Assembly (NCBI GenBank): GCA_002937585.1
Contig: PTKE01000005.1
Span: 1 to 62,024, forward strand
Reading direction: 5' to 3'
Length of the DNA stretch: 62,024 bases
Source: Alphaproteobacteria bacterium MarineAlpha9_Bin6
GTDB lineage: Bacteria > Pseudomonadota > Alphaproteobacteria > UBA7887
Part shown: piece after piece, positions 5,642 through 58,457 of the stretch
How the letters are laid out: each line of letters opens with the position of its first letter
How positions within the stretch are numbered: the first letter of the stretch is position 1
Notes under the pieces: generated by a model
The model's input: only the letters and a program-made list of their open reading frames with translations
Told to the model about the DNA's origin: nothing
Database searches by the model: none
Made by a program: the position numbers and the translations under genes

Positions 5642-6070
5642 ATGGCACGTTCATCTATATTTGGTAGTCCGATGTTGGTGGGATTTGAGCCGTTCGAGCG
5701 GATGCTTGAACAAATGTCTAAGGCTTCATCCGATGGCTATCCACCCTACAATATAGAGCAGCTCAACGAGCGTCAGTTCAGGATTTCTCTCGCTGTTGCG
5801 GGATTTGGGCCAGAGGAGTTGAGTGTAGTGGTCGATGATAGTCGACTAACAATTTCCGGACACCATCGTGAGGACGGACACCAAAGTTTTCTCCATCGCG
5901 GCATCGCGACCCGACAATTTCAGCGTAGCTTTTTGTTGGCTAACGGACTCGAAATTTCCGGATCTTGGTTGGATAACGGCATGCTCCATATCGACATCGT
6001 GCGTCTTGATCCGGGGACGCGTGTCCGACAAATCGAAATTAGAAGCTCGCCAAAGAACGGTTCGCAATAA
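5642..6070 (+). CDS. Small heat-shock protein, Hsp20 family (IbpA-like)
   Basis: This is a 142-residue ATP-independent holdase chaperone that binds unfolding proteins in the cytoplasm. The N-terminal arm (GFEPFERMLEQM, then GYPPYNIEQL) is typical of the IbpA/HspA class. The alpha-crystallin domain follows at about residues 35-125: FRISLAVAGFGPEELSV, LTISGHH, FLHRGIATRQFQRSFLLA, and NGMLHIDIVR. The usual C-terminal I-x-I anchor is seen only weakly, as IEIRSS. The ATG at 5642 has a G-rich ribosome binding site. The gene converges on the histidine kinase gene with only 20 bases between their ends. Confidence 0.92.
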   Translation: MARSSIFGSPMLVGFEPFERMLEQMSKASSDGYPPYNIEQLNERQFRISLAVAGFGPEELSVVVDDSRLTISGHHREDGHQSFLHRGIATRQFQRSFLLANGLEISGSWLDNGMLHIDIVRLDPGTRVRQIEIRSSPKNGSQ

Positions 6071-6090
6071 ATACATTAGGAGAAAATTAT

Positions 6091-7734
6091 TTATCCTGCA
6101 GCTAAGGGTATCCGGACGACGAAGCAGGCTCCGGACACCGTGGTTTTTTCGTTGTCCCTTGATGCTCGGTTTGAAGCCACTACACCTCCTCCATGTGCTT
6201 CCAAAATTTGTCTTGCGATGCTTAGCCCTAACCCTGAGTGATCGCCAAATTTCTCGCCCGCTGGCCGGTCACTGTAAAAACGCTTGAATACGCTATCGAT
6301 GCTTCCCAGCGGCAAGCCCGGACCTTCATCCTCAACGAGGATTTCGGCGAATTCGTCTCGGTTGTCCAGTGAGATGCTAACTTTCCCACCGTCCGGGCTA
6401 AAACTGATCGCATTGTCCAGAAGATTTCGAAAGGCTTGAGCAAGCTGGCTTTCAATTCCTTGCACCAAAACTGGTTTTCTCAATTCCGAGATGAACTCTA
6501 AGTGCACCTCCCGCAAATCAGCCCGCGCGCCGTAGACTTCAACCATGGCACTGAGCATGTTTTGTAATTGGACAGGCTCAGTGAGGCCTCTTGCAAGTTC
6601 AGCATCCAAACGGGAGGCTGCGGAAATATCTGTGATCAACCGGTCCATCCGGCGGATGTCGTCGTTCAATATTTTAAATAACCGGTCACGCTTATGTGGA
6701 TCATCAATGCTCTGGAGTGTCTCAGCGGCGCTACGCAGGCTGGATAAGGGATTTTTTAGCTCGTGCGCGACATCCGCGGCGAAACCCTCAACTGCGTCAA
6801 TGCGTTCCCATAGTGTCTCAGTCATGCGACGTAGGGCCACACTCAGTTCTCCGATCTCATCACGCCGCGCCGATAGATTTGGAATCTCTTGGGCCCGTCC
6901 TAGATCGCGGGCAACGCGGTCGGCACTAGCTGCAAGCCAACGTATCGGGCGTGCAACAGAGCGTGCTAAATAAGTGGATAGCAGGGCTGTGACCAAAAAT
7001 GCTAGCGCTGAAAGTAACAAGATTTGAATGCGCATAGACTGCACGCGCGCGTCTATACCGGTAGTGTCCGCGGTCAAAAGCAAAGCACCGACTACCTGTT
7101 TAAAACGCTGGACTGGTGCCGCGGCTAATAAAATTGCGCCCCCGTGCTCCAGTCGTTGGACACTAGCAGTCTTATCTCCGCTGAGTGCATTAGCTACTTC
7201 GAGATAATGGTTGGCAGTCTGGTCTGGGTATTCAATGTAGCGTTGCAAATTGGCACGTCCCCCGCGGTCCACCCAACGACTTAACTGGGAAAGCCATTGC
7301 TTTATAGCGCCAATCATAACTGGGGATGGTAATTCTTTAAGGCGCACTTCTGCGCCACCCACTGCGAGAAGGCGCGTATCCGCTATCAGTTGGCCGCTAG
7401 GATCGAACAACCTAGCGCGAAGCTTAATTGGTGGAACCAGCCGTCGAAGGACCTGCTGACTGCGTTTGGTGTCAATTTGTTGCGGCAGAATGGGGTCACG
7501 AGGGACGGCGCTTTCACCGAGGGCGGCAGCGAAAGCCTCCGCTTCGGTTTGTAGTGCGTCTAAGCGCTCGATCATTAAACCTCGCTGATATTGGGCAAGG
7601 TAAAGAATGCCTCCGGCTACAATTGCCAGCGCAACAATATTGATTGCAAGTAGCCGAAGAGTAAGCTTTGAAATCGCCGGTGACTTATAAACAGGCCGCA
7701 TCGCCATCGGGTGCGTTTCAACGGCGATACCCAT
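6091..7734 (-). CDS. chvG: ChvG-type sensor histidine kinase
   Basis: This is the membrane sensor kinase of a two-component system and partner of the response regulator just upstream. With the start at 7734 it has about 547 residues. The first membrane helix lies at 25-48, followed by a periplasmic stimulus-sensing domain of about 185 residues containing the family-typical RARLFDPSGQLIADTR. The second helix is at 234-257, then HAMP, the H-box DVAHELKNPLSSL with phospho-accepting His near 324, and a HATPase domain (NLLDNA, DEGPG, GLGLSIARQI). ChvG/ExoS/BvrS sensors control envelope and host-association genes in Rhizobiales. An in-frame ATG at 7791 would overlap chvI by 35 bases. The later start leaves a 22-base gap and places the first helix normally. 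Confidence 0.88.
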   Translation of the reverse strand: MGIAVETHPMAMRPVYKSPAISKLTLRLLAINIVALAIVAGGILYLAQYQRGLMIERLDALQTEAEAFAAALGESAVPRDPILPQQIDTKRSQQVLRRLVPPIKLRARLFDPSGQLIADTRLLAVGGAEVRLKELPSPVMIGAIKQWLSQLSRWVDRGGRANLQRYIEYPDQTANHYLEVANALSGDKTASVQRLEHGGAILLAAAPVQRFKQVVGALLLTADTTGIDARVQSMRIQILLLSALAFLVTALLSTYLARSVARPIRWLAASADRVARDLGRAQEIPNLSARRDEIGELSVALRRMTETLWERIDAVEGFAADVAHELKNPLSSLRSAAETLQSIDDPHKRDRLFKILNDDIRRMDRLITDISAASRLDAELARGLTEPVQLQNMLSAMVEVYGARADLREVHLEFISELRKPVLVQGIESQLAQAFRNLLDNAISFSPDGGKVSISLDNRDEFAEILVEDEGPGLPLGSIDSVFKRFYSDRPAGEKFGDHSGLGLSIARQILEAHGGGVVASNRASRDNEKTTVSGACFVVRIPLAAG

Positions 7735-7756
7735 ATCTGCCTGATTTTGCTCCGTG

Positions 7757-8464
7757 TTAGGTGTCTTCTTTATACCGGTATCCGATTCCATATAGCGTTT
7801 CGATCTTTGCAAAATTGGGGTCGATAATACGGAATTTTTTGCGAATCCGTTTGATATGGCTGTCAATAGTACGGTCATCAACATATGTCTGTTCATCATA
7901 TGCTGCGTCTAAAAGCTGGTCTCGGCTGCGTACGTGTCCTGGCCGTTTTGCAAGCGAGGAAAGAATCAGAAATTCGGTTACAGTCAGTGATACAGATTCG
8001 CCGCACCAAGTACACATGTGGCGAGCTGAATCCAGCATTAAGTCTCCGCGAGAGATGCTCTCTTTGGAGTTGTCAATTTCAGCACCCTCAGCCGTTAATA
8101 AGTCGATGCGTCTCAGTAGTGCCTTAATGCGTTCTATAAGCAAGCGGACCGAGAATGGTTTGGTGATATAATCGTCTGCTCCCATCTTAAGGCCGAGCAG
8201 TTCATCAATTTCATCGTCTTTCGAGGTAAGGAAGATAATGGGTAGAGACGACTTCTGTCGCAGTCGGGAAAGTAACTCCATGCCGTTCATGCGTGGCATC
8301 TTTATATCAAGCACGACCAGATCTACTGGATTTTCCCGAAGCCCACGCAATGCCTGCTCACCATCCTTGTACGTGTGCGCTTCAAATCCCTCATTTTCAA
8401 GAGCGATACCGATCGAAGTTAGTATGTTGTGATCGTCATCAACTACGGCAATTTTTGCTGGCAC
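7757..8464 (-). CDS. chvI: ChvI-type OmpR-family response regulator
   Basis: This 235-residue response regulator has a receiver domain (residues 3-118) with acidic pocket VVDDDH, phospho-acceptor Asp53 in [12 protein letters not shown], and a KPF switch lysine. It is followed by an OmpR/PhoB winged-helix DNA-binding domain. The C-terminal segment with [19 protein letters not shown] and [10 protein letters not shown] is strongly characteristic of ChvI orthologues. It is transcribed with the kinase gene. In many alphaproteobacteria this pair is followed by hprK and a PTS EIIA gene; here hsp20 converges instead, so that wider arrangement is not kept. Likely targets are envelope or acid-stress genes elsewhere. 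Confidence 0.92.
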
Positions 8465-8690
8465 GCGAATGTCTCTCTCAATGCCTTAATGGCAATACTC
8501 GTAACATGAATATGTCTCACAAAGGTAGGATATGGTTGCCTCACTGTAAAATTTAAGTCTTGGCACTCTTTGCTAGGATTGGCAATTTTGGTTGCTAGCT
8601 GCGGTTTGACCATTAGATTAACAGTGCCTATCGTTTTTACTGGATAATCGCAGTGTTAAGAACTCAGAATTCTTCACGACGAGTGCCAGG

Positions 8691-9422
8691 ATGAGTTTAT
8701 CGTCTCAATCAACTGTTGTTGCTGCTGGTGCGCGTGCTTTGGTTCGTCAATGTGATCGGGCGATACTATCTACGGCACAAGCTGATGAAGGTGGTTGGCC
8801 CTATGGATCCCTGGTCATGACTGCGTGTGACTACGAGGGAAAGCCGATTATGCTGCTTTCGGATCTTGCTGAGCACAGCAAAAATCTCAGTCAGGATGTG
8901 CGAGCTTCATTATTGTTTGATGCTACTGATGGCCTTGAGAATCCATTAACTGGTGCACGGGTCACTGTGATGGGACGTGCAGTTTTGACTAAAACACTAA
9001 CGGATAGGGAGCGTTACTTGGCAAGACATCCGTCTTCTGCCGTATACGTAGATTTTGCTGATTTTAAGTTTTACTCCGTGGAGGTGACACGGGTTCACCA
9101 GGTTGCAGGCTTCGGGCAGATTGATTGGATCTCAGCTGAAGCGTTCCTGTGCGAAACTAGTCGGATGACGGAATTCGCCGCAGTCGAAGCGCAGATTATT
9201 GAAAAGTTAAATCGGGAAAGTATGGATAAGGAGTCACTTTATGGGAGTGTTTCCTTGGTTTTAGCAGGCGACGATTGGAGTTTTACGGGGATCGACCCAG
9301 AAGGCTGTGATCTGCGAGCAGGTAGTCGAGTTAGGCGGATTCTTTTTGATAAGCCTGTGACCGATTTGGCAAGCACTCTAGATGCGCTTAAGGAATTAGC
9401 TGGGCGCACGACCACTGCCTAG
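8691..9422 (+). CDS. HugZ-like pyridoxamine-oxidase-fold protein with DUF2470-like tail
   Basis: The protein has 243 residues. Residues 10-150 form a split-barrel flavin- or heme-binding fold (PPOX class): ARALVRQCDRAILSTAQ, GWPYGSLVMTACDYEGKPIMLLSDLAEHSKNL, and DPLTG-like NPLTGARVTVMGR. The RYLARHPSSAVYVDFADFKFY segment matches the HugZ group. The last 80 residues correspond to DUF2470 but lack the usual His-containing 'MNADH' helix, reading KLNRESMDKES instead. HugZ proteins bind or degrade heme; without the tail histidines heme handling is uncertain, and a flavin or F420 role cannot be excluded. It is divergent from chvI. Confidence 0.8.
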   Translation: MSLSSQSTVVAAGARALVRQCDRAILSTAQADEGGWPYGSLVMTACDYEGKPIMLLSDLAEHSKNLSQDVRASLLFDATDGLENPLTGARVTVMGRAVLTKTLTDRERYLARHPSSAVYVDFADFKFYSVEVTRVHQVAGFGQIDWISAEAFLCETSRMTEFAAVEAQIIEKLNRESMDKESLYGSVSLVLAGDDWSFTGIDPEGCDLRAGSRVRRILFDKPVTDLASTLDALKELAGRTTTA

Positions 9423-9635
9423 TTCAGCTCAGTTGATGATGCGGCGATGATCCAAATGGCTGGCATCACGGATGGTGTCTAGTGGCACATTAATGACATG
9501 GCGCAGGGACGAAGGAAACCTGGTGTTAGTGCCAAGACTCAAACGATTCCCGTTTAAGGACTTCCAAAGCATGTTCTGTAAAGTGGGTCGAGTGATAAAT
9601 AATTCAAAAGTTATATGCCTCCAACGTCGTAACGG

Positions 9636-10613
9636 ATGATGAACGTGCCAACTCCTTCAGGCGATTTGTTGGCGCCGGTGCTCGCTGGTAAGGCGCGGGC
9701 GATTGCTCGTCTAATCAGTCGCGCTGAGATGGGCAGTCCGGAGTGTCTCCAGACGCTTGCAAAGATTTATCGTAGTGCGGGACACGCTCATGTGATTGGC
9801 ATCACTGGTGTGCCGGGTAGTGGAAAATCCACTTTGGTGCGATCCTTTGCTCAGGCGGTGCGTCGGGAAGGTCGTACGATCGCCGTGGTAGCAATTGATC
9901 CATCCAGCCCATTTTCGGGTGGTGCGATTCTGGGCGATCGTATACGAATGCTTGAAATTGCGCGTGATCCGGGTGTGTTCATTCGCAGTATGGCGACGCG
10001 AGGAGTACTCGGCGGGCTCGCCCGGGCGGCACTCGACGCGGTAGACATATTGGATGCAGCGGGCTTCGATCTCGTTGTAATAGAAACTGTTGGTGTTGGT
10101 CAGGATGAGGTCGATATCGTTCAGGCTGCGCATTCGACAGTGGTTGTCTCGGCTCCCGGACTTGGAGATGATGTGCAGGCAATCAAGGCGGGGATTTTAG
10201 AAATCGCGGACATCCATGTTGTAAGCAAGGCGGACCGGGCGGATGCTAACAAGACTGTCACTGATCTCACGCAGATGCTTGCCATGGGTCTCCCAGAAAT
10301 ATCTGATAAAGTTTGGGTAACACCCGTTCTTTCTATCAGTGCTCTGAACGATGATGGTGTAACGGGTCTTTTAGTGTCTCTTGATAAGCATCGCGCTTTT
10401 CTCCATGAGTCGGGTAACATAAGCAAGAGATCTCGCCGGATCGCCGCTCATCGGATCTTAATGATTGCTGAAGAGGTTATTCGGGAACGCTTGGCTGTGG
10501 ACCAGAGTCAGGTGATGCAAGCTCTTCTGGATCGCGTGTTGGCGCGCGAGGTGGATCCGCATAGTGCAGCAGTCGAATTTTTGGCAAGGGTGAATGAGAA
10601 CGCTTCGAAATGA
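9636..10613 (+). CDS. meaB: MeaB/ArgK-type G3E GTPase, B12 mutase chaperone
   Basis: The protein has 325 residues. The G3E P-loop GTPase pattern is clear: Walker A ITGVPGSGKST (about residues 52-62), then VVAIDPSSPFSGGAILGDRIRM, SMATRGVLGG, VVIETVGVGQDEVDI, and a guanine-specificity SKAD. MeaB proteins load or protect adenosylcobalamin in acyl-CoA mutases by GTP hydrolysis. The stop codon overlaps the start of the mutase gene (ATGA at 10610), so the two are translationally coupled and this chaperone most likely serves that mutase. In systems built on 2-hydroxyisobutyryl-CoA mutase the equivalent chaperone has been called MeaH. Confidence 0.93.
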   Translation: MMNVPTPSGDLLAPVLAGKARAIARLISRAEMGSPECLQTLAKIYRSAGHAHVIGITGVPGSGKSTLVRSFAQAVRREGRTIAVVAIDPSSPFSGGAILGDRIRMLEIARDPGVFIRSMATRGVLGGLARAALDAVDILDAAGFDLVVIETVGVGQDEVDIVQAAHSTVVVSAPGLGDDVQAIKAGILEIADIHVVSKADRADANKTVTDLTQMLAMGLPEISDKVWVTPVLSISALNDDGVTGLLVSLDKHRAFLHESGNISKRSRRIAAHRILMIAEEVIRERLAVDQSQVMQALLDRVLAREVDPHSAAVEFLARVNENASK

Positions 10614-12328
10614 GTAAGAGGACCGTGACTAAAGTTGGAGAAGTTGCAAAGGACATGCGGCTCGAGCAGCTACAGCAAAGCTTCGCAGATTGGGAAAAAA
10701 ATGAACTAGCGAACTTCTTAAGCCGGACCCCTGAGTCCAAACAAGATTACCGAACAGCCTCAGGAACAAAGCTCAAGCGCATATACAGTGCTCTGGACGT
10801 CGCGGATACACCGATCGAGGATATCGGGTTGCCGGGACGTTATCCATTTACACGCGGACCATACCCGACAATGTATCGAGGTCGGAACTGGACCATGCGC
10901 CAAATTGCTGGATTTGGTACTGGTTCAGACACCAATCAAAGGTACAAGTTTCTGCTCAAAAGCGGCCAGACAGGGCTATCTACTGATTTCGATATGCCAA
11001 CGCTGATGGGTTACGACTCCGATCATCCAATGGCACATGGAGAAGTTGGTCGAGAGGGCGTTGCAATTGATACTCTGGATGATATGGAAGCCTTATTTAA
11101 GGGTATTGATCTTACTGCGATTTCAGTATCGATGACGATCAATCCCTCGGCTTGGGTTTTGTACTCGATGTATATCGCCCTTGCCGAGAGCAGAGGATAC
11201 GATTTAAACAAATTATCCGGTACCATCCAAGCCGATATTCTCAAGGAATATATTGCTCAAAAGGAATGGATTTTTCCGATCCGGCCCTCGGTGCGATTGG
11301 CACGTGATTGCATTGCATATGGGGCCAGGAACATGAGGCGTTATAATCCAATCAACATTTCCGGCTACCACATATCCGAGGCAGGTGCGACTGCAGTTCA
11401 GGAAGCTGCCTTCACGATGGCAAATACCATTGCTTATGTAGAAGAGGTGACAAAGGCTGGGGTCGATGTTGACGAGTTTGCACCAAGGCTGTCGTTTTTT
11501 TTCGTTAGCCAGGCAGATTTTTTTGAGGAGATAGCCAAGTTTAGGGCTCTACGTAGAGTGTACGCGAAAATTATGAGGCATCGTTTCGGAGCAAAGAATC
11601 CGGAGTCGATGCGGCTTCGGTTCCACACTCAAACCGCTGCTGCCACGCTCACCAAACCACAATATATGGTTAATGTTGTGCGCACTGCCTTTCAGGCGTT
11701 GGCAGCCGTGCTAGGTGGGACCCAAAGTTTACATACAAATGGCATGGATGAGGCATTCACAATTCCTAGCGAGGAAGCAATGCGTCTATCCCTTCGAACT
11801 CAGCAGGTGATTGCTGACGAAACCAATATAACCTCAGTGGTCGACCCTCTAGGTGGTTCCTATATGGTCGAAACTCTGACCACTCAGATGGAGCGGGACA
11901 TTTTCACTATTCTTGATACGGTCGATTCCATGGGAGGAACGATTAAGGCGATAGAGGACGGTTGGTTTCAGCGTAAGATTGCGGAGTCGTCTTATGATTT
12001 TGCTATTCGCAAAGCGAGCGGCGAAAATCCGGTGATAGGAGTTAATAAATATATCGAGGATAATGAAAGCGAACCTCAGATTGGACTGCACCCCTATGAT
12101 CCGGAAACAGAGGCGCGTCAGGTAGCAAATTTGACCCACACTCGAACAAATCGTGATGAAGGGAAGGTACAAGCTTTGTTGAAGGAATTGATAATTCACG
12201 CAAGGGAGGAGTCGAAAAATTTGATGCCTATTACTATTGAGTTGGTCAAGGCGCGTGCCTCAATGGGCGAAATTGTTGAAACACTAAAAAGCCTTTGGGG
12301 TACCTATCGCGAAAATCCGGTAATCTGA
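10610..12328 (+). CDS. Adenosylcobalamin-dependent acyl-CoA mutase large subunit, 2-hydroxyisobutyryl-CoA mutase-like
   Basis: The protein has 572 residues: a TIM-barrel acyl-CoA mutase large subunit without the C-terminal B12-binding domain. Seen motifs are RGPYPTMYRGRNWTMRQIAGFGTG, GQTGLSTDFDMPTLMGYDSDHP (split here into recognisable halves), NISGYHISEAG, RLRFHTQTAAATLTKPQ and DPLGGSYMVE. Methylmalonyl-CoA mutases have Tyr in 'RQYAGF' and Ala in 'SVAFD'. This protein has Ile99 and Asp126, spaced 27 apart exactly like Ile90 and Asp117, which define 2-hydroxyisobutyryl-CoA mutase HcmA. The likely reaction is interconversion of 2-hydroxyisobutyryl-CoA and 3-hydroxybutyryl-CoA, or a close relative. 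The small B12-binding subunit is not in this window. Confidence 0.88.
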   Translation: MSKRTVTKVGEVAKDMRLEQLQQSFADWEKNELANFLSRTPESKQDYRTASGTKLKRIYSALDVADTPIEDIGLPGRYPFTRGPYPTMYRGRNWTMRQIAGFGTGSDTNQRYKFLLKSGQTGLSTDFDMPTLMGYDSDHPMAHGEVGREGVAIDTLDDMEALFKGIDLTAISVSMTINPSAWVLYSMYIALAESRGYDLNKLSGTIQADILKEYIAQKEWIFPIRPSVRLARDCIAYGARNMRRYNPINISGYHISEAGATAVQEAAFTMANTIAYVEEVTKAGVDVDEFAPRLSFFFVSQADFFEEIAKFRALRRVYAKIMRHRFGAKNPESMRLRFHTQTAAATLTKPQYMVNVVRTAFQALAAVLGGTQSLHTNGMDEAFTIPSEEAMRLSLRTQQVIADETNITSVVDPLGGSYMVETLTTQMERDIFTILDTVDSMGGTIKAIEDGWFQRKIAESSYDFAIRKASGENPVIGVNKYIEDNESEPQIGLHPYDPETEARQVANLTHTRTNRDEGKVQALLKELIIHAREESKNLMPITIELVKARASMGEIVETLKSLWGTYRENPVI

Positions 12329-12337
12329 GCAAATCCG

Positions 12338-13432
12338 ATGAGTACTGTCGCGACACCCGTGGTTGTTACGTTCAAAGGTACTGCGCCAAATTGGGGTGCG
12401 GCCGATTTCGGGTTAGGAGCGGCGGTAATCGGGCGGGCTAGCCTGGGTAAGGATGTCTCGTTGGGTCCTTGGGCAACATTGCGTGGTGACGGCAATTTTC
12501 TCGAAGTTGGAGACGGTTGTCGGTTCCTTGATAGGGCCACTGTGCATATAGCGGATGGCATTTACCCTACTCGAATGGGTCGCAATATTACTGTTGGTCG
12601 TTTTGCATTAGTCCACGCTTGTACTATTGCCGATGACTGCATTCTAGGGGACGCAGCCGTGGTGATGGATAATTCTTCCGTTGGCGCTGGCACAGTGATC
12701 GCTGCCGGTGCGTTGGTCCCTCCAGGTAAAAAACTTGACGGTGGATGGCTTTATGACGGAAATCCAGCGCAGCCCGTGCGCGAGGTGTCGTTGGATGAGC
12801 GTGAGCAATTGCGTTCCATTCTGCTGGCCGGCGAGAACAGTGACATCGTGCGTGATTCAAACCTGCCGCCTCTTGATATGAAGCCATTTATACCGACGGG
12901 TAGTGGTGAGGGGCCACTCTACCCCCTTGGGGGTGCTAAACCCCTGATTGATGCGAGAGGCTATGTCGCGCCCACAGCAGTTGTTGTAGGTGATGTGGTG
13001 GCGGCTGAGGGCACCAGCATCTGGTTTTCCACCGTCATGCGGGGAGACGGAGCGCCGATCATCCTTGGTGAACGCAGTAATGTTCAGGACAACTCAATTC
13101 TGAGTACCGATGCGCGTCGTGGACCTATAACCATCGGTGCGGATGTTACCATTGGCCACAACGTTAGAATGGGAGCCTGCACTCTCGGCGACGAATGTTT
13201 AATCGGTATGGGTGCGCAACTTAGTGATGGTGTAGTAGTAGAGAACGGTGCACTAGTGGGAGCCCGCGCTTATGTTGAACCAGAGACCTTAGTCAAGGCC
13301 GGGTATATTTGGGCGGGTCGTCCGGCTGTTGAGTTCCGACCAGTGAAGCCTGAGGAACATGAGTTTTTTCAGCGCGGCAAGGAAGTTTATGTTGGTTACA
13401 CCGACACATACCTTGCGGAACAGGCGGCGTGA
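12338..13432 (+). CDS. Tandem gamma-carbonic-anhydrase-like hexapeptide protein
   Basis: The 364-residue protein contains two left-handed beta-helix domains, about residues 20-145 and 195-335, each of the gamma-carbonic-anhydrase type. Compared with the archaeal enzyme Cam (His81, His117, His122), domain 1 has His70 and His93 but Arg88 in the middle position. Domain 2 has Ser256, His274 and Gly279. Each half is incomplete, but together they hold one full ligand set. Both keep an RGD motif (49-51 and 235-237); only domain 2 keeps the Gln of NVQD. The gene starts nine bases after the mutase gene and is surely in its operon. Function could be carbonic anhydrase, CoA-related binding, or acyl transfer. 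Confidence 0.8.
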   Translation: MSTVATPVVVTFKGTAPNWGAADFGLGAAVIGRASLGKDVSLGPWATLRGDGNFLEVGDGCRFLDRATVHIADGIYPTRMGRNITVGRFALVHACTIADDCILGDAAVVMDNSSVGAGTVIAAGALVPPGKKLDGGWLYDGNPAQPVREVSLDEREQLRSILLAGENSDIVRDSNLPPLDMKPFIPTGSGEGPLYPLGGAKPLIDARGYVAPTAVVVGDVVAAEGTSIWFSTVMRGDGAPIILGERSNVQDNSILSTDARRGPITIGADVTIGHNVRMGACTLGDECLIGMGAQLSDGVVVENGALVGARAYVEPETLVKAGYIWAGRPAVEFRPVKPEEHEFFQRGKEVYVGYTDTYLAEQAA

Positions 13433-14491: not shown

Positions 14492-15472
14492 TTATTCGCC
14501 CCAGACCTTAGCTAAAATCGTGAGCCAGTTCTCCCCCATCACCTTTCTGATTTGTTTTTCGGTCCAGCCCCGCGTAATCATGGCTGTGGTAAGATTGGGA
14601 AACTCGCCTAATCGTTGAAAGCCGGGCGGGTTTTTGATTTCACCGAAATCGGTAAGTTTGCGCCCCGTACCTTTGTCGTGGGTGATCCAATCAAAGAATG
14701 GTTCACCATAGTCTTGCGTCATGTCAGTTCCTATACCCACTTGGTTTTCCCCAGCGACATTGATCACGTGCTCTATGGCGTCCAGATAATCTTCGAGGCT
14801 CGAGTTTGCTCCTTTGGGCAAAAATGGTGGAAACATTGTCACGCCGACAAAGCCGCCTTGCTCGGCAATAAACCTGAGTTCCTCATCTGTTTTGTTGCGT
14901 GGGTGTTCCCGCAGTGCTTTGGGGCATATGTGGGAGTAGCAAACCGGTGCCTTTGAATGACGGATCGCATCGGCACTGGTTTTTGAACCTACATGCGACA
15001 AATCTACCAGCATGCCGAGCTGGTTCATTTCATCAATCACATCCCGTCCAAAATCAGATAATCCGCCATCTTCGCTTTCGTAGCAGCCGCTTCCGACCAA
15101 GTTCTGTGTGTTGTAAGTAAGTTGCACCACGCCCACGCCGAGGTTTTTGAAAAGACCTAGGAAATCCAGTCGGTCCTCAATTGGGCTGGCATTCTGCCAC
15201 CCTAGGACGATCCCGACTTTTCCTTCGGCTTTGGCTCGCTGAATGTCAGACACGGCCCTAACCTGAATTAAAAGATCGTCGCAACTCTTAAACCAATTAT
15301 GCCACTGCGCGATATTCTCCATCGTGCCACGAAAGCCTTCCCATACCGCGCATGTACAGTTAGCTGCGGTGACCCCACCTCGCTTCATGTCCTCAAATAC
15401 TGCGCGACTCCAGTTTGAGACGATCAGGCCATCAAATACGACCATGCTATCATGGAGATTTTGGGTGTTCAC
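14492..15472 (-). CDS. M19 (membrane dipeptidase) family protein with altered metal site
   Basis: The 326-residue protein has the TIM-barrel fold of renal dipeptidase-like enzymes. Family segments include GVGVVQLTYNTQNLVGSGC, DFGRDVIDEMNQLGMLVDLSHVG, PVCYSHICPKALREHPRN and HVINVAGENQVGIGTDM. The two C-terminal metal histidines are present (LSHVG and YSHIC). The N-terminal HxD pair normally following the first strand is replaced by residues 16-20 (LIVSN), and the bridging Glu region reads GWQNASP. It is therefore probably not a standard binuclear zinc dipeptidase. A related subfamily with this N-terminus occurs in alphaproteobacteria. Start is GTG at 15472; an ATG at 15445 is the alternative. 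It is divergent from the DpgC-like gene. Confidence 0.82.
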   Translation of the reverse strand: MNTQNLHDSMVVFDGLIVSNWSRAVFEDMKRGGVTAANCTCAVWEGFRGTMENIAQWHNWFKSCDDLLIQVRAVSDIQRAKAEGKVGIVLGWQNASPIEDRLDFLGLFKNLGVGVVQLTYNTQNLVGSGCYESEDGGLSDFGRDVIDEMNQLGMLVDLSHVGSKTSADAIRHSKAPVCYSHICPKALREHPRNKTDEELRFIAEQGGFVGVTMFPPFLPKGANSSLEDYLDAIEHVINVAGENQVGIGTDMTQDYGEPFFDWITHDKGTGRKLTDFGEIKNPPGFQRLGEFPNLTTAMITRGWTEKQIRKVMGENWLTILAKVWGE

Positions 15473-15615
15473 CGGAGTGGGGTCCGCAGCACGTTTATGA
15501 GTGGCATCAGTTGCTCGTCATTCCTCCGAACAACCTCATGTTGCGACATGGGAATAGACAGGTCAAGATGGCTCGGTTGGGTGGAGCGAGAACTAACCGC
15601 ATAGAGAACTGCATT

Positions 15616-17016
15616 ATGAGAGCCAAACCTGCGGCAGAAACTGTACAGTCCGCATCAAGTGGAGATGATTATCAATCCTGGCTGACCCGCGAACCGTCCT
15701 TTGTCACGACGGGTGGTGGCTTGGATTCGGATGTGGCGGCTCTCAAACAGTTTAGCGATGCGGGCGATGGTTTGCTCCAGCTTTCTACCGGGGGTAAAGG
15801 CCTTGATCACAAAAATTTAGACCTAACGCGTCTAATTAAGGACAAAATCCATGATGTCCGCGCTGCTTTCCTGCGTGTTCATGCGGAGGCAGTGTACTCC
15901 TCATTAACTGACACTTTTGCCCAGCCGGTTCGGATTCAATCCTTGGTGGACACAGCTGTCCGCCGCTACCCAGGTTTATTGCCGAGTGCCTCCAAAATCA
16001 CGGAAGATGCCACCCGAAGTTTAAAGGAGAAAGAAGGCCACGAACGAGCCATCGGGTTATTGTTATCGCATATTTTTGCGAATCCTCGGGCAGGCATTCA
16101 TTTGCTCCAAAGTATGTTGCGGCCGCTACCCGATTCGGTTGAAGAAACGGCTAAGTTCAGCCGTGACGGCGTACTTGATTTGGGAGCTGCCGTGCTCCGC
16201 CGTACTGGAAAAGCGGCCGAGTTGTTGATGTACAACCCAGAGTACCTGAACGCCGAGGACGCGAGCACTATCGGGCCCATGGAGCAGGCGGTGGATGTCG
16301 CAATACTCGATCCAATCACAGAGGTATGCGTGTTGCGTGGTACACCAGCACAGCACCCGCGTTATGCGGGCCGCAACATTTTTTGCAGCGGCCTCAACCT
16401 GACTCATCTTTATGAAGGAAAAATACCGTATCTTTGGTATCTCACACGCGATCTCGGTTTTGTGAACAAAATCGCGCACGGATTGTTGGATGATCCGGAC
16501 GCAATAGATGATCCTATGCCTACGGTTGAAAAGCCATGGATTGCTGCGGTAGAGACCTTTGCGATCGGTGGCGGATGTCAATACCTACTGGTAATGGATT
16601 ACACCCTCGCTGAAAAAAGCGCTTATTTGACTTTGCCGGCCCGCAAGGAAGGCATTATTCCCGGCTTAACTAACATGCGTTTGCCAAGGTTCGTCGGAGA
16701 TCGAATTACCCGACAGGCAATATTGTTTGATCGTCGGCTTGAAGCGGATAGCCCTGAAGGGCGAATGATTGTTGATCAAATTGTGCCAGACGGTGAGATG
16801 AGCTCAGCAGTGGAAGCAACTGTGCAAAAATTAACTAGTTCCGGCAGTGTCAGCACCGTTGGTAACCGCAAAGCGCTGAGAGTGTGTCAGGAAAGTTTGG
16901 ATGATGTGCGAAGGTATATGGCAAGCTACGCCCGTGAGCAGGTAAAATGCCATCTGAGTCCGGCTTTAGTTCGAAATTTAGAGGACAACTGGCTTAAGCC
17001 AAAGGGCAAGCTGTAG
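15616..17016 (+). CDS. DpgC-like crotonase-fold oxygenase
   Basis: About 466 residues follow the ATG at 15616; a start at 15568 is possible. The N-terminal 200 residues are a helical domain with RAAFLRVHAEAVYSSLTD and SLKEKEGHERAIGLLLSHI. The C-terminal 250 residues are a crotonase fold with LNAEDASTIGPMEQAVD, HPRYAGRNIFCSGLNLTHL (about 246-264), EKPWIAAVETFAIGGGCQ (to 322) and ARKEGIIPGLTNMRLPRF. This two-part layout is that of DpgC, the cofactor-free dioxygenase that converts 3,5-dihydroxyphenylacetyl-CoA to the glyoxylate in glycopeptide antibiotic producers. The partners DpgA, DpgB and DpgD are absent, so the natural substrate is probably another arylacetyl-CoA or acyl-CoA. Confidence 0.85.
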   Translation: MRAKPAAETVQSASSGDDYQSWLTREPSFVTTGGGLDSDVAALKQFSDAGDGLLQLSTGGKGLDHKNLDLTRLIKDKIHDVRAAFLRVHAEAVYSSLTDTFAQPVRIQSLVDTAVRRYPGLLPSASKITEDATRSLKEKEGHERAIGLLLSHIFANPRAGIHLLQSMLRPLPDSVEETAKFSRDGVLDLGAAVLRRTGKAAELLMYNPEYLNAEDASTIGPMEQAVDVAILDPITEVCVLRGTPAQHPRYAGRNIFCSGLNLTHLYEGKIPYLWYLTRDLGFVNKIAHGLLDDPDAIDDPMPTVEKPWIAAVETFAIGGGCQYLLVMDYTLAEKSAYLTLPARKEGIIPGLTNMRLPRFVGDRITRQAILFDRRLEADSPEGRMIVDQIVPDGEMSSAVEATVQKLTSSGSVSTVGNRKALRVCQESLDDVRRYMASYAREQVKCHLSPALVRNLEDNWLKPKGKL

Positions 17017-21357: not shown

Positions 21358-23814
21358 ATGGTGGATGAAGTTTCTTTACATCAACACCCCTCGAATGAGG
21401 GGACGGTCATGTCAGCTGATGCGCTGCGTCACCTAGCGCGTGAGCTGGACCTTTCTGAATTGATTGTCCGAGCGAGTGTTCTTCGCGATCAAGGTCACGG
21501 AACAATCCAGACTTTTTCACCTAAGGTTTTTATCCCTCTCACCCATCTCTGCCGAGATGTATGCCATTACTGCACGTTTGCGAAGCCACCACGGCAGGGG
21601 GAAGCCGCGTATTTGACTCCTGATGAGGTATTGTCAATTGCCCGCGAAGGGGCCCTCGCGGGCTGCCATGAAGCTTTATTCACTCTCGGCGATAAGCCCG
21701 AGTTGCGATATCAGGTCGCTCGTGAGCAACTTGCCTTGCTCGGTCATGAGAACACAATTTCCTACCTGGTCGAGATGTGCGAGTTGGTCCTCAAGGAGAC
21801 TGGCTTGTTGCCGCACGCCAACCCTGGCGTGCTGGCGGCAGATGAAATTGCTGCGCTGCGTCGGGTTACCACGTCTCAAGGGATAATGTTGGAAAGTGCA
21901 GCTAAGCGATTATGCCAGCACGGCGGTCCGCATTTTGGCTCTCCTGATAAGGAGCCCGCTGTGCGCCTTGAAACCATCCGATCGGCCGGTGAACAGGCAG
22001 TACCAATTACGTCTGGAATTCTGATAGGGATCGGGGAAACGCGAGAGGAACGCATTGATGCATTGCTTGCTTTACGCTCCCTTCATCTTGAGCACGACCA
22101 TATCCAGGAAATCATTATCCAAAATTTCCGCGCTAAGCCCGATACTAAAATGGCTGATGCACCGGAGCCTGACCTAAATGAATTGATGTGGACGATTGCG
22201 ATCGCACGCATCGCATTTGGCTCGACGATGAATATACAGGCACCACCAAATCTCAGCCCGAATGTGTTTGGTCGCCTCATAGAAGCTGGGATCAATGATT
22301 GGGGTGGCGTTTCGCCGGTGACACTCGATCATGTCAACCCGGAAGCGCCGTGGCCTGAGGTGGGAATGCTTGCAGAAGCAACCAAGGAAGCCGGGAAGAC
22401 ACTAGTTCCAAGGCTCGCTATTTATCCTGAATACGTGAAAAATTTAGAGCGATGGCAAGATGATGGAGTGGCGTGCCATGTGCGCCACGTCGCAGACGCG
22501 GATGGTTTTGCGCGGCCCGAAGCATGGTCTCCGGGCTCATTAAACCCGGTACCTTCTAACAACGTAACTGACGGGCCGTTTGTTGCGGAATCATATGGCC
22601 AGATCGAATCCATTCTTAACCGCGCCTGTGATGGAATACGCCTCGAAGAAGGAGATATTGCACGAATGTTTCGTGCCCGAGGGGAAGAGGTTGATTTAAT
22701 TAGTCAGACTGCTGACGATTTACGTCGCGCGACTGTAGGTAACGTGGTCCGTTACGTCGTTAATCGAAATATTAATTATACAAATGTGTGTTACTTCCGT
22801 TGCCAATTCTGCGCTTTTTCGAAAGGAAAACTTAGCGAAAATTTACGTGGTGCACCGTACGATCTAGCGCTGGACGAAGTGACGCGAAGAGTCCAGGAGG
22901 CTTGGGAGCGCGGAGCCACGGAAGTATGTATGCAAGGTGGCATCCACCCAGATTACACAGGTGATACCTATCTCGAGATATGCAGAGCGGTGCGAGCGAC
23001 GGTACCGGATATGCACATTCACGCTTTTTCGCCGCTCGAGGTATATCAGGGTGCAGAGACATTGGGTATGCCAGTGAGTGATTTCCTGGAGAGTTTGCGG
23101 GAGGCTGGTCTTGACACACTCCCTGGCACCGCGGCAGAGATTTTGGATGACTCGGTGCGTGCAACTCTTTGTCCGGACAAGCTCAATACCGCGAGTTGGT
23201 TAGAGGTGATGGAGGCGGCACACCGGTGCGGTTTCCGCACCACTGCGACGATTATGTTTGGGCATATAGATGGTCCTGAAAATTGGGCTCGCCATCTGCT
23301 CAGAATCCGCGACCTACAGGCTAAGACTGGGGGATTTACTGAATTTGTGCCCCTTCCATTCGTTCACATGGAAGCCCCAATTTATCTAAAAGGTAAAGCA
23401 CGTCGAGGTCCAACTTGGCGAGAAACAATCCTTATGCATGCTATTGCGCGTCTGTCCCTGCATCCCCTAATCCCCAATATACAAGTATCGTGGGTCAAAT
23501 TGGGGCCGTGCGGCGCGAGCGCGTGCTTACAAACTGGTGCGAATGACCTTGGCGGTACATTAATGAACGAAAGTATTTCGCGTGCCGCTGGCAATGAGCA
23601 TGGCCAGGAAATGGGGCCGGCAAAAATGGAACATTTGATCAAGGCGATTGACCGTACACCCGAACAACGCACTACGCTCTATCAGGTAGCGCCAGCTGGT
23701 CAGCGCGAAAGATCATTTGGTGCGTCCCCCTTAGCCCCGATGGTTCAAACGCCGGCTGGGAAGTATGCTCGCACTGGCACTTCTTCGGACGTGACAGTTG
23801 GTGCTGCAGGTTGA
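21358..23814 (+). CDS. fbiC: FO synthase, fused CofG-CofH (FbiC)
   Basis: The 818-residue bifunctional radical SAM enzyme makes 7,8-didemethyl-8-hydroxy-5-deazariboflavin (FO), the chromophore of F420, from tyrosine and 5-amino-6-ribitylamino-uracil. Two CX3CX2C iron-sulfur motifs are visible: Cys65, Cys69 and Cys72 in the N-terminal CofG half, and Cys478, Cys482 and Cys485 in the C-terminal CofH half. Other marks are LFTLGDKPE, NPGVLA, IQNFRAKPDT, QAPPNLSP (CofG) and CMQGGIHPDYTGD, GTAAEILDD, ASCLQTG-like ACLQTGANDLGGTLMNE (CofH). The fusion order equals actinobacterial FbiC; archaea use two genes. The ATG at 21358 has an AGGA site seven bases before it. It leads the biosynthetic run. Confidence 0.96.
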   Translation: MVDEVSLHQHPSNEGTVMSADALRHLARELDLSELIVRASVLRDQGHGTIQTFSPKVFIPLTHLCRDVCHYCTFAKPPRQGEAAYLTPDEVLSIAREGALAGCHEALFTLGDKPELRYQVAREQLALLGHENTISYLVEMCELVLKETGLLPHANPGVLAADEIAALRRVTTSQGIMLESAAKRLCQHGGPHFGSPDKEPAVRLETIRSAGEQAVPITSGILIGIGETREERIDALLALRSLHLEHDHIQEIIIQNFRAKPDTKMADAPEPDLNELMWTIAIARIAFGSTMNIQAPPNLSPNVFGRLIEAGINDWGGVSPVTLDHVNPEAPWPEVGMLAEATKEAGKTLVPRLAIYPEYVKNLERWQDDGVACHVRHVADADGFARPEAWSPGSLNPVPSNNVTDGPFVAESYGQIESILNRACDGIRLEEGDIARMFRARGEEVDLISQTADDLRRATVGNVVRYVVNRNINYTNVCYFRCQFCAFSKGKLSENLRGAPYDLALDEVTRRVQEAWERGATEVCMQGGIHPDYTGDTYLEICRAVRATVPDMHIHAFSPLEVYQGAETLGMPVSDFLESLREAGLDTLPGTAAEILDDSVRATLCPDKLNTASWLEVMEAAHRCGFRTTATIMFGHIDGPENWARHLLRIRDLQAKTGGFTEFVPLPFVHMEAPIYLKGKARRGPTWRETILMHAIARLSLHPLIPNIQVSWVKLGPCGASACLQTGANDLGGTLMNESISRAAGNEHGQEMGPAKMEHLIKAIDRTPEQRTTLYQVAPAGQRERSFGASPLAPMVQTPAGKYARTGTSSDVTVGAAG

Positions 23815-23824
23815 GGCGATACAC

Positions 23825-24514
23825 GTGTCTTGCGACAAATTGCGAAAGCTGGCGGTCTTGGGGGGAACGGGTGATCAGGGGAGCGCGTTAGCGTTGCGGT
23901 GGGCGCTCGCCGGGCATCAAGTGACGCTGGGCTCCCGGTTGGCCGAACGGGCATGCAAGGTGGCTGACCAACTAAACAAACAGCACGACGGCGCCAAACT
24001 GCAAGGAGCGGGCAATAGAGACGCTGCTTCTGCCGCGGACGTTGTTATTCTTACCGTTCCCTTCAGCGCGCAGAGTGCCACAGTGGAGGAAGTGCGTGAG
24101 GTGCTTGATGGTAAAATATTAATTGATGTAACTGTTCCACTCGTGCCACCGAAGGTTGCTCGTGTGCAATTGCCAGATGGTGGATCGGCCGTTGTGAACA
24201 TCCAGAAGCTATTAGGAAATTCAGTTCGGGTAGTCTCTGCTTTCCAGAACGTGTCCGCCCAACACCTGAAGAACATCGATGGGCCGATCGATTGTGATGT
24301 CCTGGTGTGCGGGGACGATGTGGAAGCTCGAGAAGTGGCAATCGAGTTGGCGAATGCTGGAAGAATGCGAGGAATTCACGGTGGGCCGTTGGTAAATTCG
24401 GTGGTTGCGGAGGCTCTTACGTCTGTGCTTATCGGCATCAATAAGCGTTACAAGGTGCCTGGCGCAGGTATCTCAATCACCGGACTTTCGGACCAGACGA
24501 ACGGCCTTCGCTGA
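23825..24514 (+). CDS. npdG: F420:NADPH oxidoreductase
   Basis: The roughly 229-residue enzyme transfers hydride between NADPH and F420 and supplies F420H2 to the dependent oxidoreductases. The Rossmann nucleotide site KLAVLGGTGDQGSALALRWA and the NADP-selective LGSR at the second strand are visible. GNRDAASAADVVILTVPF, IDVTVPLVPP, VSAFQNVSAQHL and GDDVEAREVAIELA are all typical of Fno/NpdG. The start is set at GTG 23825, eight bases behind GAGG and 10 bases after the fbiC stop. TTG or GTG starts at 23798 and 23801 would overlap fbiC. It is placed between biosynthesis genes, consistent with one transcript. Confidence 0.92.
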   Translation: MSCDKLRKLAVLGGTGDQGSALALRWALAGHQVTLGSRLAERACKVADQLNKQHDGAKLQGAGNRDAASAADVVILTVPFSAQSATVEEVREVLDGKILIDVTVPLVPPKVARVQLPDGGSAVVNIQKLLGNSVRVVSAFQNVSAQHLKNIDGPIDCDVLVCGDDVEAREVAIELANAGRMRGIHGGPLVNSVVAEALTSVLIGINKRYKVPGAGISITGLSDQTNGLR

Positions 24515-24537
24515 GTTACCAGCTATATTGTGCGACC

Positions 24538-25335
24538 ATGCCTCACTCAGCGTCTGTTAAGTCCTCTCAACTAGTGTTTACCGCACTCACCGGCCTGCCG
24601 TTGATCCGTGCCGGCGACGACCTGGTTGCATTAATTTTGGGTGAGTGCTCCGCAGCTGGTGAGAAACTGTGTGACGGTGATATTTTGGTTCTAGCTCAAA
24701 AAATTGTCTCGAAAGCAGAAGGGCGAGTGGTGGATTTAGCTAGTGTCACTCCTTCGGCGGCAGCTTTGGCGTTGGCCCAATCATCAAACAAGGATCCCCG
24801 TCTGGTTGAGGTGATTCTCACCGAATCAAACGAAGTAATTCGCCAAAGGGAGGGTGCACTCATCGTCGAGAACCGGCTCGGAGTTGTGCTGGCAAATGCT
24901 GGGGTCGATATGTCCAACGTGGATCAAGATGGTGGTGATGCCGTACTGCTTTTACCCGAAGATCCGGATCGAAGTTGTGCTCTCCTGAGGGAGGGAATAA
25001 AGCAACGTGCCGAGGTTGATGTTGGTGTCATGATTAACGATAGCCTTGGTCGTGCTTTTCGTAATGGCACCGCGGGGGCCGCGTTAGGGGTTGCAGGAGT
25101 GCCGACGTTGGTAGATCTGTCCGGAACACCTGACCTATTCGGACGGCCACTCAGAGTTACGCAGGTTGCTATTGCTGATGAGCTCGCCGCAGCGGCGTCT
25201 CTCTTGATGGGGCAGGCAAACGAGGGCCGACCAGTAGTTCTGGTGCGTGGATTCCAATGTCATGCGGCACCAGGAAAGGGGCAGGATTTAATCCGGGTTA
25301 AGGAGCAGGACTTGTTTCGTGAGCCTATACGATGA
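24538..25335 (+). CDS. cofE: F420-0:gamma-glutamyl ligase
   Basis: The 265-residue enzyme adds gamma-linked glutamates to F420-0 using GTP. Family marks are LTGLPLIRAGDDL, GDILVLAQKIVSKAEGRVVDL, VEVILTESNEVIRQ, GVVLANAGVDMSNVD, NDSLGRAFRNGTAGAALGVAG and VTQVAIADELAAAASLLMGQA. The length is that of stand-alone CofE. The C-terminal nitroreductase-like domain found in mycobacterial FbiB, which reduces dehydro-F420, is missing. The stop overlaps the cofD start (ATGA at 25332), so the two are translationally coupled. Confidence 0.94.
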   Translation: MPHSASVKSSQLVFTALTGLPLIRAGDDLVALILGECSAAGEKLCDGDILVLAQKIVSKAEGRVVDLASVTPSAAALALAQSSNKDPRLVEVILTESNEVIRQREGALIVENRLGVVLANAGVDMSNVDQDGGDAVLLLPEDPDRSCALLREGIKQRAEVDVGVMINDSLGRAFRNGTAGAALGVAGVPTLVDLSGTPDLFGRPLRVTQVAIADELAAAASLLMGQANEGRPVVLVRGFQCHAAPGKGQDLIRVKEQDLFREPIR

Positions 25336-26300
25336 TTCTTGCTTTGGCCGGGGGTGTAGGCGGTGCAAAGTTGGCAAATGGCTTCGCAAAAATCCTCGAT
25401 CCCGATCAATTGCTTGTCGTGGTTAATACCGGCGATGATTTTGAGCATTTCGGGTTTCCGATTTCGCCGGACCTCGACACAGTAACCTACACCTTGGCGG
25501 GAATGAACAATGCTGAGGCTGGATGGGGTCTCGCCGGTGAGAGCTGGGAATTTATGAATGCGCTTGAGCGTCTGGGTGGGGAAGGGTGGTTTCGCCTAGG
25601 GGACCAGGACCTTGCCACCCACGTAATGCGCGCTAAATTTCTTAATGAGGGACAAAATTTATCTGATGTAACCGCAAGGATCGCACGTCGGTTTGGAATT
25701 TTACATCCAATTGTGCCGATGAGTGATCAACGAGTTCGGACCGTTGTTGAAACTGAAACAGGCAAAATGCCGTTCCAAATTTATTTTGTCCGTGAGCGGT
25801 GTGTCCCAGTGACTAAACACATACATTATGAAGGCGCAAACGAAGCTGTTCCATCGGAAAAATTTGCGGCGGCTTTGGATCGCGACGATCTTAGTTCAAT
25901 TATAATTTGTCCTTCTAACCCGTTATTGAGTGTTGCTCCGATCTTGGCGTTGCCAGAAGTAAGGGGGCGGTTGATTTCACATAATGCTCCGGTGATTGCT
26001 GTATCCCCAATCATAGGTGGGGAAACAGTGAAAGGGCCTGCGGCTAAAATTTTCAGAGAACTTGATCTTGAGGTGTCGGCGCTCGGTGTTGCCCGGTATT
26101 ACGGAGATCTGCTTGATGGCATAGTAATTGATTCTAAGGATGCTGCTTTAGCGTCTAGCATATCTGAAGTCGGGCCCCAGACGTTGGCCACCCGAATTTT
26201 GATGCAGTCGTCGAGTGACCAGATTCAGCTAGCGCGCGAAGTTATGGAGTTTTCCAAACTCCTTTCACGGCGAGATGACCGCGGCGTCGGTGAAACATGA
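25332..26300 (+). CDS. cofD: LPPG:FO phospholactate transferase
   Basis: The 322-residue enzyme transfers the phospho-acid moiety from a GDP-activated intermediate onto FO, forming F420-0 (or its dehydro or glycerate form). Visible are ILALAGGVGGAKLANGF at the N-terminus, VVNTGDDFEHFGFPISPDLDTV, WGLAGESW, WFRLGDQDLATHVMR, PMSDQRVRTVV, ICPSNPLLSVAPIL, VIAVSPIIGGETVKGPAAKI and VARYYGDLLDGIVID. All are typical of CofD/FbiA. Overlaps on both sides (ATGA at 25332 and at 26297) tie it to cofE and cofC. Confidence 0.95.
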   Translation: MILALAGGVGGAKLANGFAKILDPDQLLVVVNTGDDFEHFGFPISPDLDTVTYTLAGMNNAEAGWGLAGESWEFMNALERLGGEGWFRLGDQDLATHVMRAKFLNEGQNLSDVTARIARRFGILHPIVPMSDQRVRTVVETETGKMPFQIYFVRERCVPVTKHIHYEGANEAVPSEKFAAALDRDDLSSIIICPSNPLLSVAPILALPEVRGRLISHNAPVIAVSPIIGGETVKGPAAKIFRELDLEVSALGVARYYGDLLDGIVIDSKDAALASSISEVGPQTLATRILMQSSSDQIQLAREVMEFSKLLSRRDDRGVGET

Positions 26301-57404: not shown

Positions 57405-58457
57405 ATGACAGCTCTAAATGAACGCTCGATCGCGGCGGTAGCGCGTGAGCGTATCTTGGTGATGGATGGTGCCATGGGAACCATGATCCAAGGCTATCAG
57501 TTGAGTGACGCCGACTATCGCGGGAAACGCTTTGCTGATTATCCGTCTGATCTTAAAGGCGCTAATGACCTTCTTAATATTACTCAAAGCCGGGTTATCA
57601 AAGAAATCCACACTTCGTATTTGGAGGCTGGGGCCGACATTCTAACCACGAACACGTTTAATGCGAATTCGATCTCGATGTCGGACTATAAACTCGAAAG
57701 AATTGTTCAAGAACTCAATTTCGAGGGAGCACGTATTGCCAGAGAGGCAGCAGACGAGGCGTCGACGCCGGAAAGGCCACGATTTGTCGCGGGTGCGCTT
57801 GGGCCAACCAATCGGACCGCGTCAATGTCTCCGGATGTCTCTGACCCCGGCTATCGCGCGATCACTTATGATGAAATACGAACCACATATCGTGAGGCCG
57901 CATCTGCGCTCATTGAAGGCGGTGTAGACTTGCTGCTACTAGAGACCGTATTTGATACCTTGAACGCGAAAGCGGCGTTATTCGCCTTTGAGGAATTGTT
58001 TGAGGAGCGCGGTTCTCGTTTGCCGGTAATGGTCTCAGGTACGATCACTGATCGTTCGGGACGTACTCTCACCGGACAGACTATCGAGGCTTTCTGGTAT
58101 TCAGTCCGTCACGGACGTCCCATCAGCATCGGTCTTAATTGCTCATTTGGTGCTGCACAGTTGAGACCTTATATAGCAGAACTCGCAGCCATAGCTGATT
58201 GCATGATCAGTGCATATCCGAATGCTGGCTTGCCGAACGAATTTGCTGAATATGATGAGCTACCGGAAGAGACCGCAAGCCATATACAAACCTGGGCCGA
58301 AGACGGTCTTGTAAATTTTGTAGGTGGCTGCTGCGGAACTACGCCGGACCATATTCAGTCTATTGCAGAGGCGGTTGCGGGGTTTCCACCTCGTGAGCCA
58401 CCAATATTACAACAATGCTTGCGACTGTCAGGTCTCGAAGCGATTGAGGTGGTTTGA
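57405..58457 (+). CDS. metH: Methionine synthase, homocysteine-binding module as a separate protein
   Basis: The 350-residue protein equals the N-terminal domain of cobalamin-dependent methionine synthase. [16 protein letters not shown] begins it, then [41 protein letters not shown] and [14 protein letters not shown]. The zinc-binding cysteines are Cys246 (GLNCSFGA) and Cys309 and Cys310 (GGCCGTTP). It activates homocysteine for methyl transfer. The stop overlaps the start of the next gene (ATGA at 58454), so the two halves are made together from one mRNA. Confidence 0.93.

Follow-up and report, generated by a model that had tools for sequence, protein, structure and literature searches.

The gamma-carbonic anhydrases (gCAs) Cam, CamH, YrdA and gamma-CaCA (9QEV) are single-domain homotrimers with a left-handed beta-helix fold, in which each subunit carries the complete set of eight hallmark residues and the trimer has three active sites. 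Each site of Cam takes His81 and His122 from one subunit, while the adjacent subunit provides His117 (PMC4519908), and the same ligand arrangement is found in CA_D, with His81/His122 and His117 provided by neighbouring subunits (PMC7199487). An asymmetric gCA ring is known from plant mitochondrial complex I, where a gCA/gCAL heterotrimer has one conserved active site (PMC7567890). That site is formed between two intact gCA subunits, while gCAL simply lacks two of the histidines; the subunits are encoded by separate genes and the losses are not complementary. Another related system is PaaY, a zinc-dependent single-domain homotrimer with the gCA fold that belongs to a CoA-thioester catabolic operon (PMC11110157, PMC467105). 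The protein described here resembles Cam, CamH, YrdA and gamma-CaCA in its fold, in the eight hallmark residues that it carries over its whole chain and in the interface site that would be expected from them, but it consists of two fused domains that hold half of the residues each.

The gene lies in a 62,024-nucleotide stretch of the MarineAlpha9_Bin6 genome, hereafter the window, as an intact open reading frame (ORF) for 364 residues with an ATG start, separated by 9 bases from the preceding ORF (Table 1). The NCBIfam gamma-CA model NF050158 matches the product in two stretches with 203 bits, which is below its curated cut-off of 250. Domain 1 (D1) and domain 2 (D2) align with each other over 129 residues without a gap and with a score of 154, compared to 33 ± 6 and a maximum of 52 for shuffled sequences, and in this alignment H70, R88 and H93 have S256, H274 and G279 as their exact counterparts. 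The protein is a tandem fusion of two gCA domains. Its AlphaFold2 monomer model, made with 13 sequences, is of medium confidence (pLDDT 73.6, pTM 0.74), with pLDDT values mostly of 77–98 in D1 and mostly of 53–84 in D2. In a Foldseek search with the model the top matches are gCAs, with TM-scores by target of 0.73–0.88 for the best ten over ~160 residues, and at the level of this predicted structure the search confirms that the left-handed beta-helix gCA fold is present.

We used 46 single-domain gCAs as a control set for the hallmark positions. Arg59, Asp61, Asn73, Gln75, Asp76, His81, His117 and His122 (Cam numbering) are essentially invariant in this set, the sole deviation being one Asp76 that is replaced by Glu. 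The fused family was represented by an alignment of 28 full-length homologues, 31–72% identical to the window protein, from relatives of the window's genome, GTDB genomes, class, phylum and family samples, and plasmids. All 28 retain R49, D51, H70 and H93 in D1 (Cam Arg59, Asp61, His81 and His122) and N248, Q250, D251 and H274 in D2 (Cam Asn73, Gln75, Asp76 and His117). The counterparts of these residues in the opposite domain are mostly lost or drifting, with at least five different residues at each. Position 256, the counterpart of H70, has nine different residues among the homologues (Ser in the window protein) and position 279, the counterpart of H93, has seven (Gly in the window protein), while position 88, at the place of Cam His117 in D1, is usually Arg (23 of 28) and otherwise Ala, His, Lys or Pro. 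D65, R235 and D237 are leftovers of the window protein itself at positions that vary across the 28 sequences. No hallmark position has disappeared from D1 and D2 alike, nor is any of the eight strictly retained in both; over the whole polypeptide all eight residues are present, each of them in one domain of every homologue. Neither domain has the three His ligands on its own, as D1 lacks the equivalent of His117 and D2 those of His81 and His122. The exception to the strict split is L040, which has a His at the R88 position and in which D1 alone therefore carries the full triad. L040 and L041 are near-identical fused genes from bins named Alphaproteobacteria and Vicinamibacteria, and they are probably one contig that has been misbinned.

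The first-pass annotation of this DNA had listed H70, R88, H93, S256, H274 and G279 and had suggested that the metal triad is divided in a complementary way between the two halves. The residues are confirmed in the ORF translation, and with the exception of L040 the complementarity extends to the family, since H70, H93 and H274 are each found in 28 of 28 homologues and their counterparts vary. Free variation of the triad positions in orthologues, which would speak against the suggestion, is not what the alignment contains. Five further positions that the annotation had not mentioned, R49 and D51 in D1 and N248, Q250 and D251 in D2, obey the same split. Conservation in 28 of 28 sequences at 31–72% identity rules out chance similarity or a broken pseudogene. 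By eye, the table of 28 homologues has no consistent acidic residue at 256 or 279 with which R88 could pair in D2. Y351 in D2 may also belong to the active site, as Tyr159 of gamma-CaCA, a possible analogue, is a zinc ligand (PMC12648627).

Table 1 Features of the tandem gCA gene and its upstream neighbours (positions in the window)
Feature	Position	Strand	Evidence or conservation in fused homologues
meaB / meaH GTPase gene	9636..10613	+	PF03308 291 bits, TIGR00750 327 bits; 55% identical to Methylibium PM1 operon protein
2-hydroxyisobutyryl-CoA mutase large subunit gene (hcmA-like)	10610..12328	+	best PDB match 4R3U; 69% identical to Methylibium PM1 HcmA
Tandem gamma-carbonic-anhydrase (gCA) gene, 364 aa	12338..13432	+	NCBIfam gamma-CA model and Foldseek
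D1 and linker start, residues 1-185; face-b half of site retained	12338..12892	+	R49, D51, H70, H93 28/28
Codons R49 (Cam Arg59) to D51 (Cam Asp61)	12482..12490	+	28/28 in D1; counterparts R235, D237 variable
Codon H70 (Cam His81)	12545..12547	+	28/28; counterpart S256 variable
Codon R88, replacing Cam His117	12599..12601	+	R 23/28, otherwise A, H, K, P
Codon H93 (Cam His122)	12614..12616	+	28/28; counterpart G279 variable
Linker end and D2, residues 186-364; face-a half of site retained	12893..13429	+	N248, Q250, D251, H274 28/28; Y351 27/27
Codons N248, Q250, D251 (Cam Asn73, Gln75, Asp76)	13079..13090	+	28/28 in D2; counterparts R62, L64, D65 variable
Codon H274 (Cam His117)	13157..13159	+	28/28 in D2
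Codon Y351, C-terminal helix of D2	13388..13390	+	27/27 with letters

According to the hexapeptide register of the beta-helix, H70 and H93 belong to face b; face a, which precedes it, holds R88/H274 and L64/Q250. The register-based assignment agrees with the ligand arrangement in Cam (PMC4519908) and CA_D (PMC7199487). Charge served as a check of the faces: in the single-domain gCAs the outward positions are charged in 4% of cases on face a and 3% on face b, compared to 40% on face c. By the register, the retained sets are on opposite interface faces, face b in D1 and face a in D2, and Arg59/Asp61 are predicted to lie opposite Asn73/Gln75/Asp76 across the interface. Subtracting the mean entropy of D2 from that of D1 gives +0.75 for face a, –1.04 for face b and +0.03 for face c, and the values are +0.55, –0.83 and +0.03 when the eight active-site residues are left out. 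Face b of D1 and face a of D2 are conserved as wholes, beyond these residues, and conservation on the solvent face (c) has no bias towards D1 or D2. A block permutation with the eight residues left out gives a p-value of ~5e-5, the lowest that 20,000 permutations can yield, under the assumption of exchangeable hexads and with phylogeny unmodelled; since D1 and D2 are within the same chains, shared ancestry is matched in each entropy comparison. We also ranked all 129 homologous position pairs by entropy, with no preselection of sites. The D1 end of this ranking consists of R49, A72, H70, D51, G52 and H93, and at the D2 end R62/N248 and D65/D251 are within the top three. In a tree calculated without the eight active-site columns, and in which single-domain gCAs are included, the D1 sequences form one clade (support 100/99) and the D2 sequences another (97/88), which fits a fusion that arose once and anciently. 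An AU test on the sister relation of D1 and D2 gives p 0.28, so that either a tandem duplication or a fusion of two gCAs may lie behind the gene.

Split conservation in a family of single origin and the face-by-face asymmetry are as expected for an active site that is formed between D1 and D2 only. Complementary degeneration has most likely split the gCA active site across the two fused domains, so that metal would be bound only at the D1–D2 contact, and one putative metal site per D1–D2 interface is strongly supported by the conservation pattern. D1 would supply face b with R49, D51, H70 and H93, and D2 the opposing face a with N248, Q250, D251 and H274. A metal ion, zinc by analogy, would bind only at the contact of these two faces and would activate a water molecule for attack; the packing, metal binding and catalysis we infer from the retained residues. 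The ring would have to be asymmetric: three chains could for example form the trimers D1D1D2 and D1D2D2 with one site in each, or alternatively D1 and D2 could pair inside one chain. Strict alternation of D1 and D2 is impossible in a ring of three, and some interfaces would therefore have no D1–D2 site. The idea in the first-pass annotation that only D1–D2 interfaces carry metal is thus supported by the family-wide conservation and the face asymmetry, with the restriction that not every interface can be of the D1–D2 kind.

The protein could also be a non-catalytic scaffold in which D1 and D2 form separate homotrimers, their sites dead and the residues retained for packing. Subunits of the gCA type that lack some ligands do exist, as in gCAL of plant complex I (PMC7567890), and 22% of the outward positions on face a of D1 are charged, compared to 4% in the single-domain proteins, which suggests that a tight interface may be gone from this face. 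In homotrimers, however, the invariant H274, Q250 and N248 of D2 would have only a degenerate face b opposite them, and H70 and H93 of D1 are likewise invariant in homologues where R88 has become Ala or Pro. The scaffold leaves the invariance on both sides unexplained and is unlikely. Less probable still is that a third polypeptide completes the site and that the split within the chain is incidental: a trimer does require a third domain, and plant gCA heterotrimers are built of separate subunits (PMC7567890), but the retained halves are exactly complementary within one chain and the window's genome, which is 98.6% complete, contains no other gCA at an E-value of 1e-3, making a separate partner subunit unlikely. 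A ring of the plant type has separate subunits and an intact gCA:gCA interface, whereas the window's genome encodes one fused chain and no further gCA. The nearest precedent is this plant heterotrimer of complex I, asymmetric but not complementary (PMC7567890), and an obligately asymmetric gCA made by complementary degeneration, as proposed here, is a new form of a known type of protein. In the open-access literature we found neither a tandem gCA nor a link between gCAs and 2-hydroxyisobutyryl-CoA mutase (HCM).

In the window the order of genes is meaB, the hcmA-like gene and the tandem gCA gene, and the first two overlap by 4 bases. The hcmA-like product matches the HCM structure 4R3U with 893 bits, compared to 439 bits for methylmalonyl-CoA mutase, and has the segments RQIAGF and STDFDM in common with 4R3U, where methylmalonyl-CoA mutases differ. 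The residues that set the specificity of HcmA, Ile90 and Asp117, lie in these segments. Genes for HcmB (69% identical to the PM1 protein) and the CoA ligase (63%) are on another contig, C91, and the HCM cluster genes hcmA, hcmB, CoA ligase and meaB/meaH are all present in the genome. A published account of the HCM operon lists hcl, hcmAB, meaH and a GntR regulator but no gCA gene, and the word "anhydrase" does not occur in that paper (PMC7176365). Methylibium PM1, Xanthobacter Py2 and Agrobacterium deltaense also have the fused gene within this cluster. The gene adjoins hcmA in L031, L033, L034, L035, L043 and G791, and is unlinked to hcmA, within the stretch compared, in L032, L036–L042, L044–L046 and L087; in G006 hcmA is on another contig. 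A close hcmA is absent from the sampled f73 genomes and from most sampled f70 genomes. Strict dependence of the fusion on HCM was rejected: some genomes with a fused gene have only methylmalonyl-CoA-mutase-like matches, and in G005 hcmA is present but the fusion is not.

Other genes around the fusion were also recorded. In L032 the tandem gCA gene is immediately preceded by genes for a small heat-shock protein, a histidine kinase and a response regulator, and the stretch compared contains no match to meaB or hcmA, whereas in the window (5642–12328) meaB and hcmA lie in between. The tandem gCA genes of L044 and L045 are preceded, as judged by eye, by ORFs of the phytanoyl-CoA-dioxygenase type and the Gfo/Idh oxidoreductase type. 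Elsewhere in the window we noted by eye a set of F420-biosynthesis-like ORFs at 21358–26300 (fused CofG/CofH-like, NpdG-, CofE- and CofD-like) with LLM-type oxidoreductase ORFs near it (18183, 20260 and 26934), and a methionine-synthase-like protein that is apparently split over two overlapping ORFs at 57405–61129. An ORF at 15415–17016 resembles DpgC, a (3,5-dihydroxyphenyl)acetyl-CoA dioxygenase, with 387 bits, under the curated cut-off of 530.

The reaction is the least secure part of the proposal. We lean slightly towards CO2 hydration over thioester hydrolysis, although even CO2 hydration falls a little short of an even chance. The full set of hallmark residues across the chain is in its favour. 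In addition, the window's genome, G003, G004 and G007 (86–99% complete) contain no beta-CA, alpha-CA or other gCA, which makes the fused gene their sole CA candidate within the alpha, beta and gamma classes covered by the search; G005, from the same family, has no fusion and does have a beta-CA. The same split site could instead catalyze PaaY-like hydrolysis of acyl-CoA thioesters, for CoA salvage in an operon with a CoA ligase, and this is a serious possibility. In several lineages, three of them with the gene on a plasmid, the fused gene is recurrently linked to genes for 2-hydroxyisobutyryl-CoA mutase, MeaB and a CoA ligase, and PaaY combines a gCA active site with zinc-dependent thioesterase activity (PMC11110157, PMC467105). 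Against a thioesterase are the fused genes that lie away from hcmA or in genomes with no close hcmA, and the role of the fused gene as sole CA candidate of the three classes in the four genomes above. The fused protein differs from PaaY in not being a single-domain homotrimer, and it matches the PaaY equivalog TIGR02287 with 151 bits, below the cut-off of 319.6. A reaction that is neither of these two is rather unlikely. More tentatively, the fusion family may be obligately heterotypic, with one productive interface per chain, between face b of D1 and face a of D2; the remaining faces would then be freed for another role, for example binding of a partner enzyme or a CoA thioester in B12-mutase operons.

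The proposed split amounts to a symmetric enzyme turned asymmetric by an unusual route. In homo-oligomeric enzymes with interfacial active sites, complementary loss can in principle give heteromers. Here the loss can be read at the level of both residues and faces, in a family of single origin and against an invariant single-domain control, so that the tandem gCAs are a clean case that can be tested in culturable strains such as Methylibium petroleiphilum PM1 and Xanthobacter Py2. The fused gene is also a candidate component of several operons for 2-hydroxyisobutyryl-CoA mutase, the route taken by 2-hydroxyisobutyrate, a product of fuel oxygenates.
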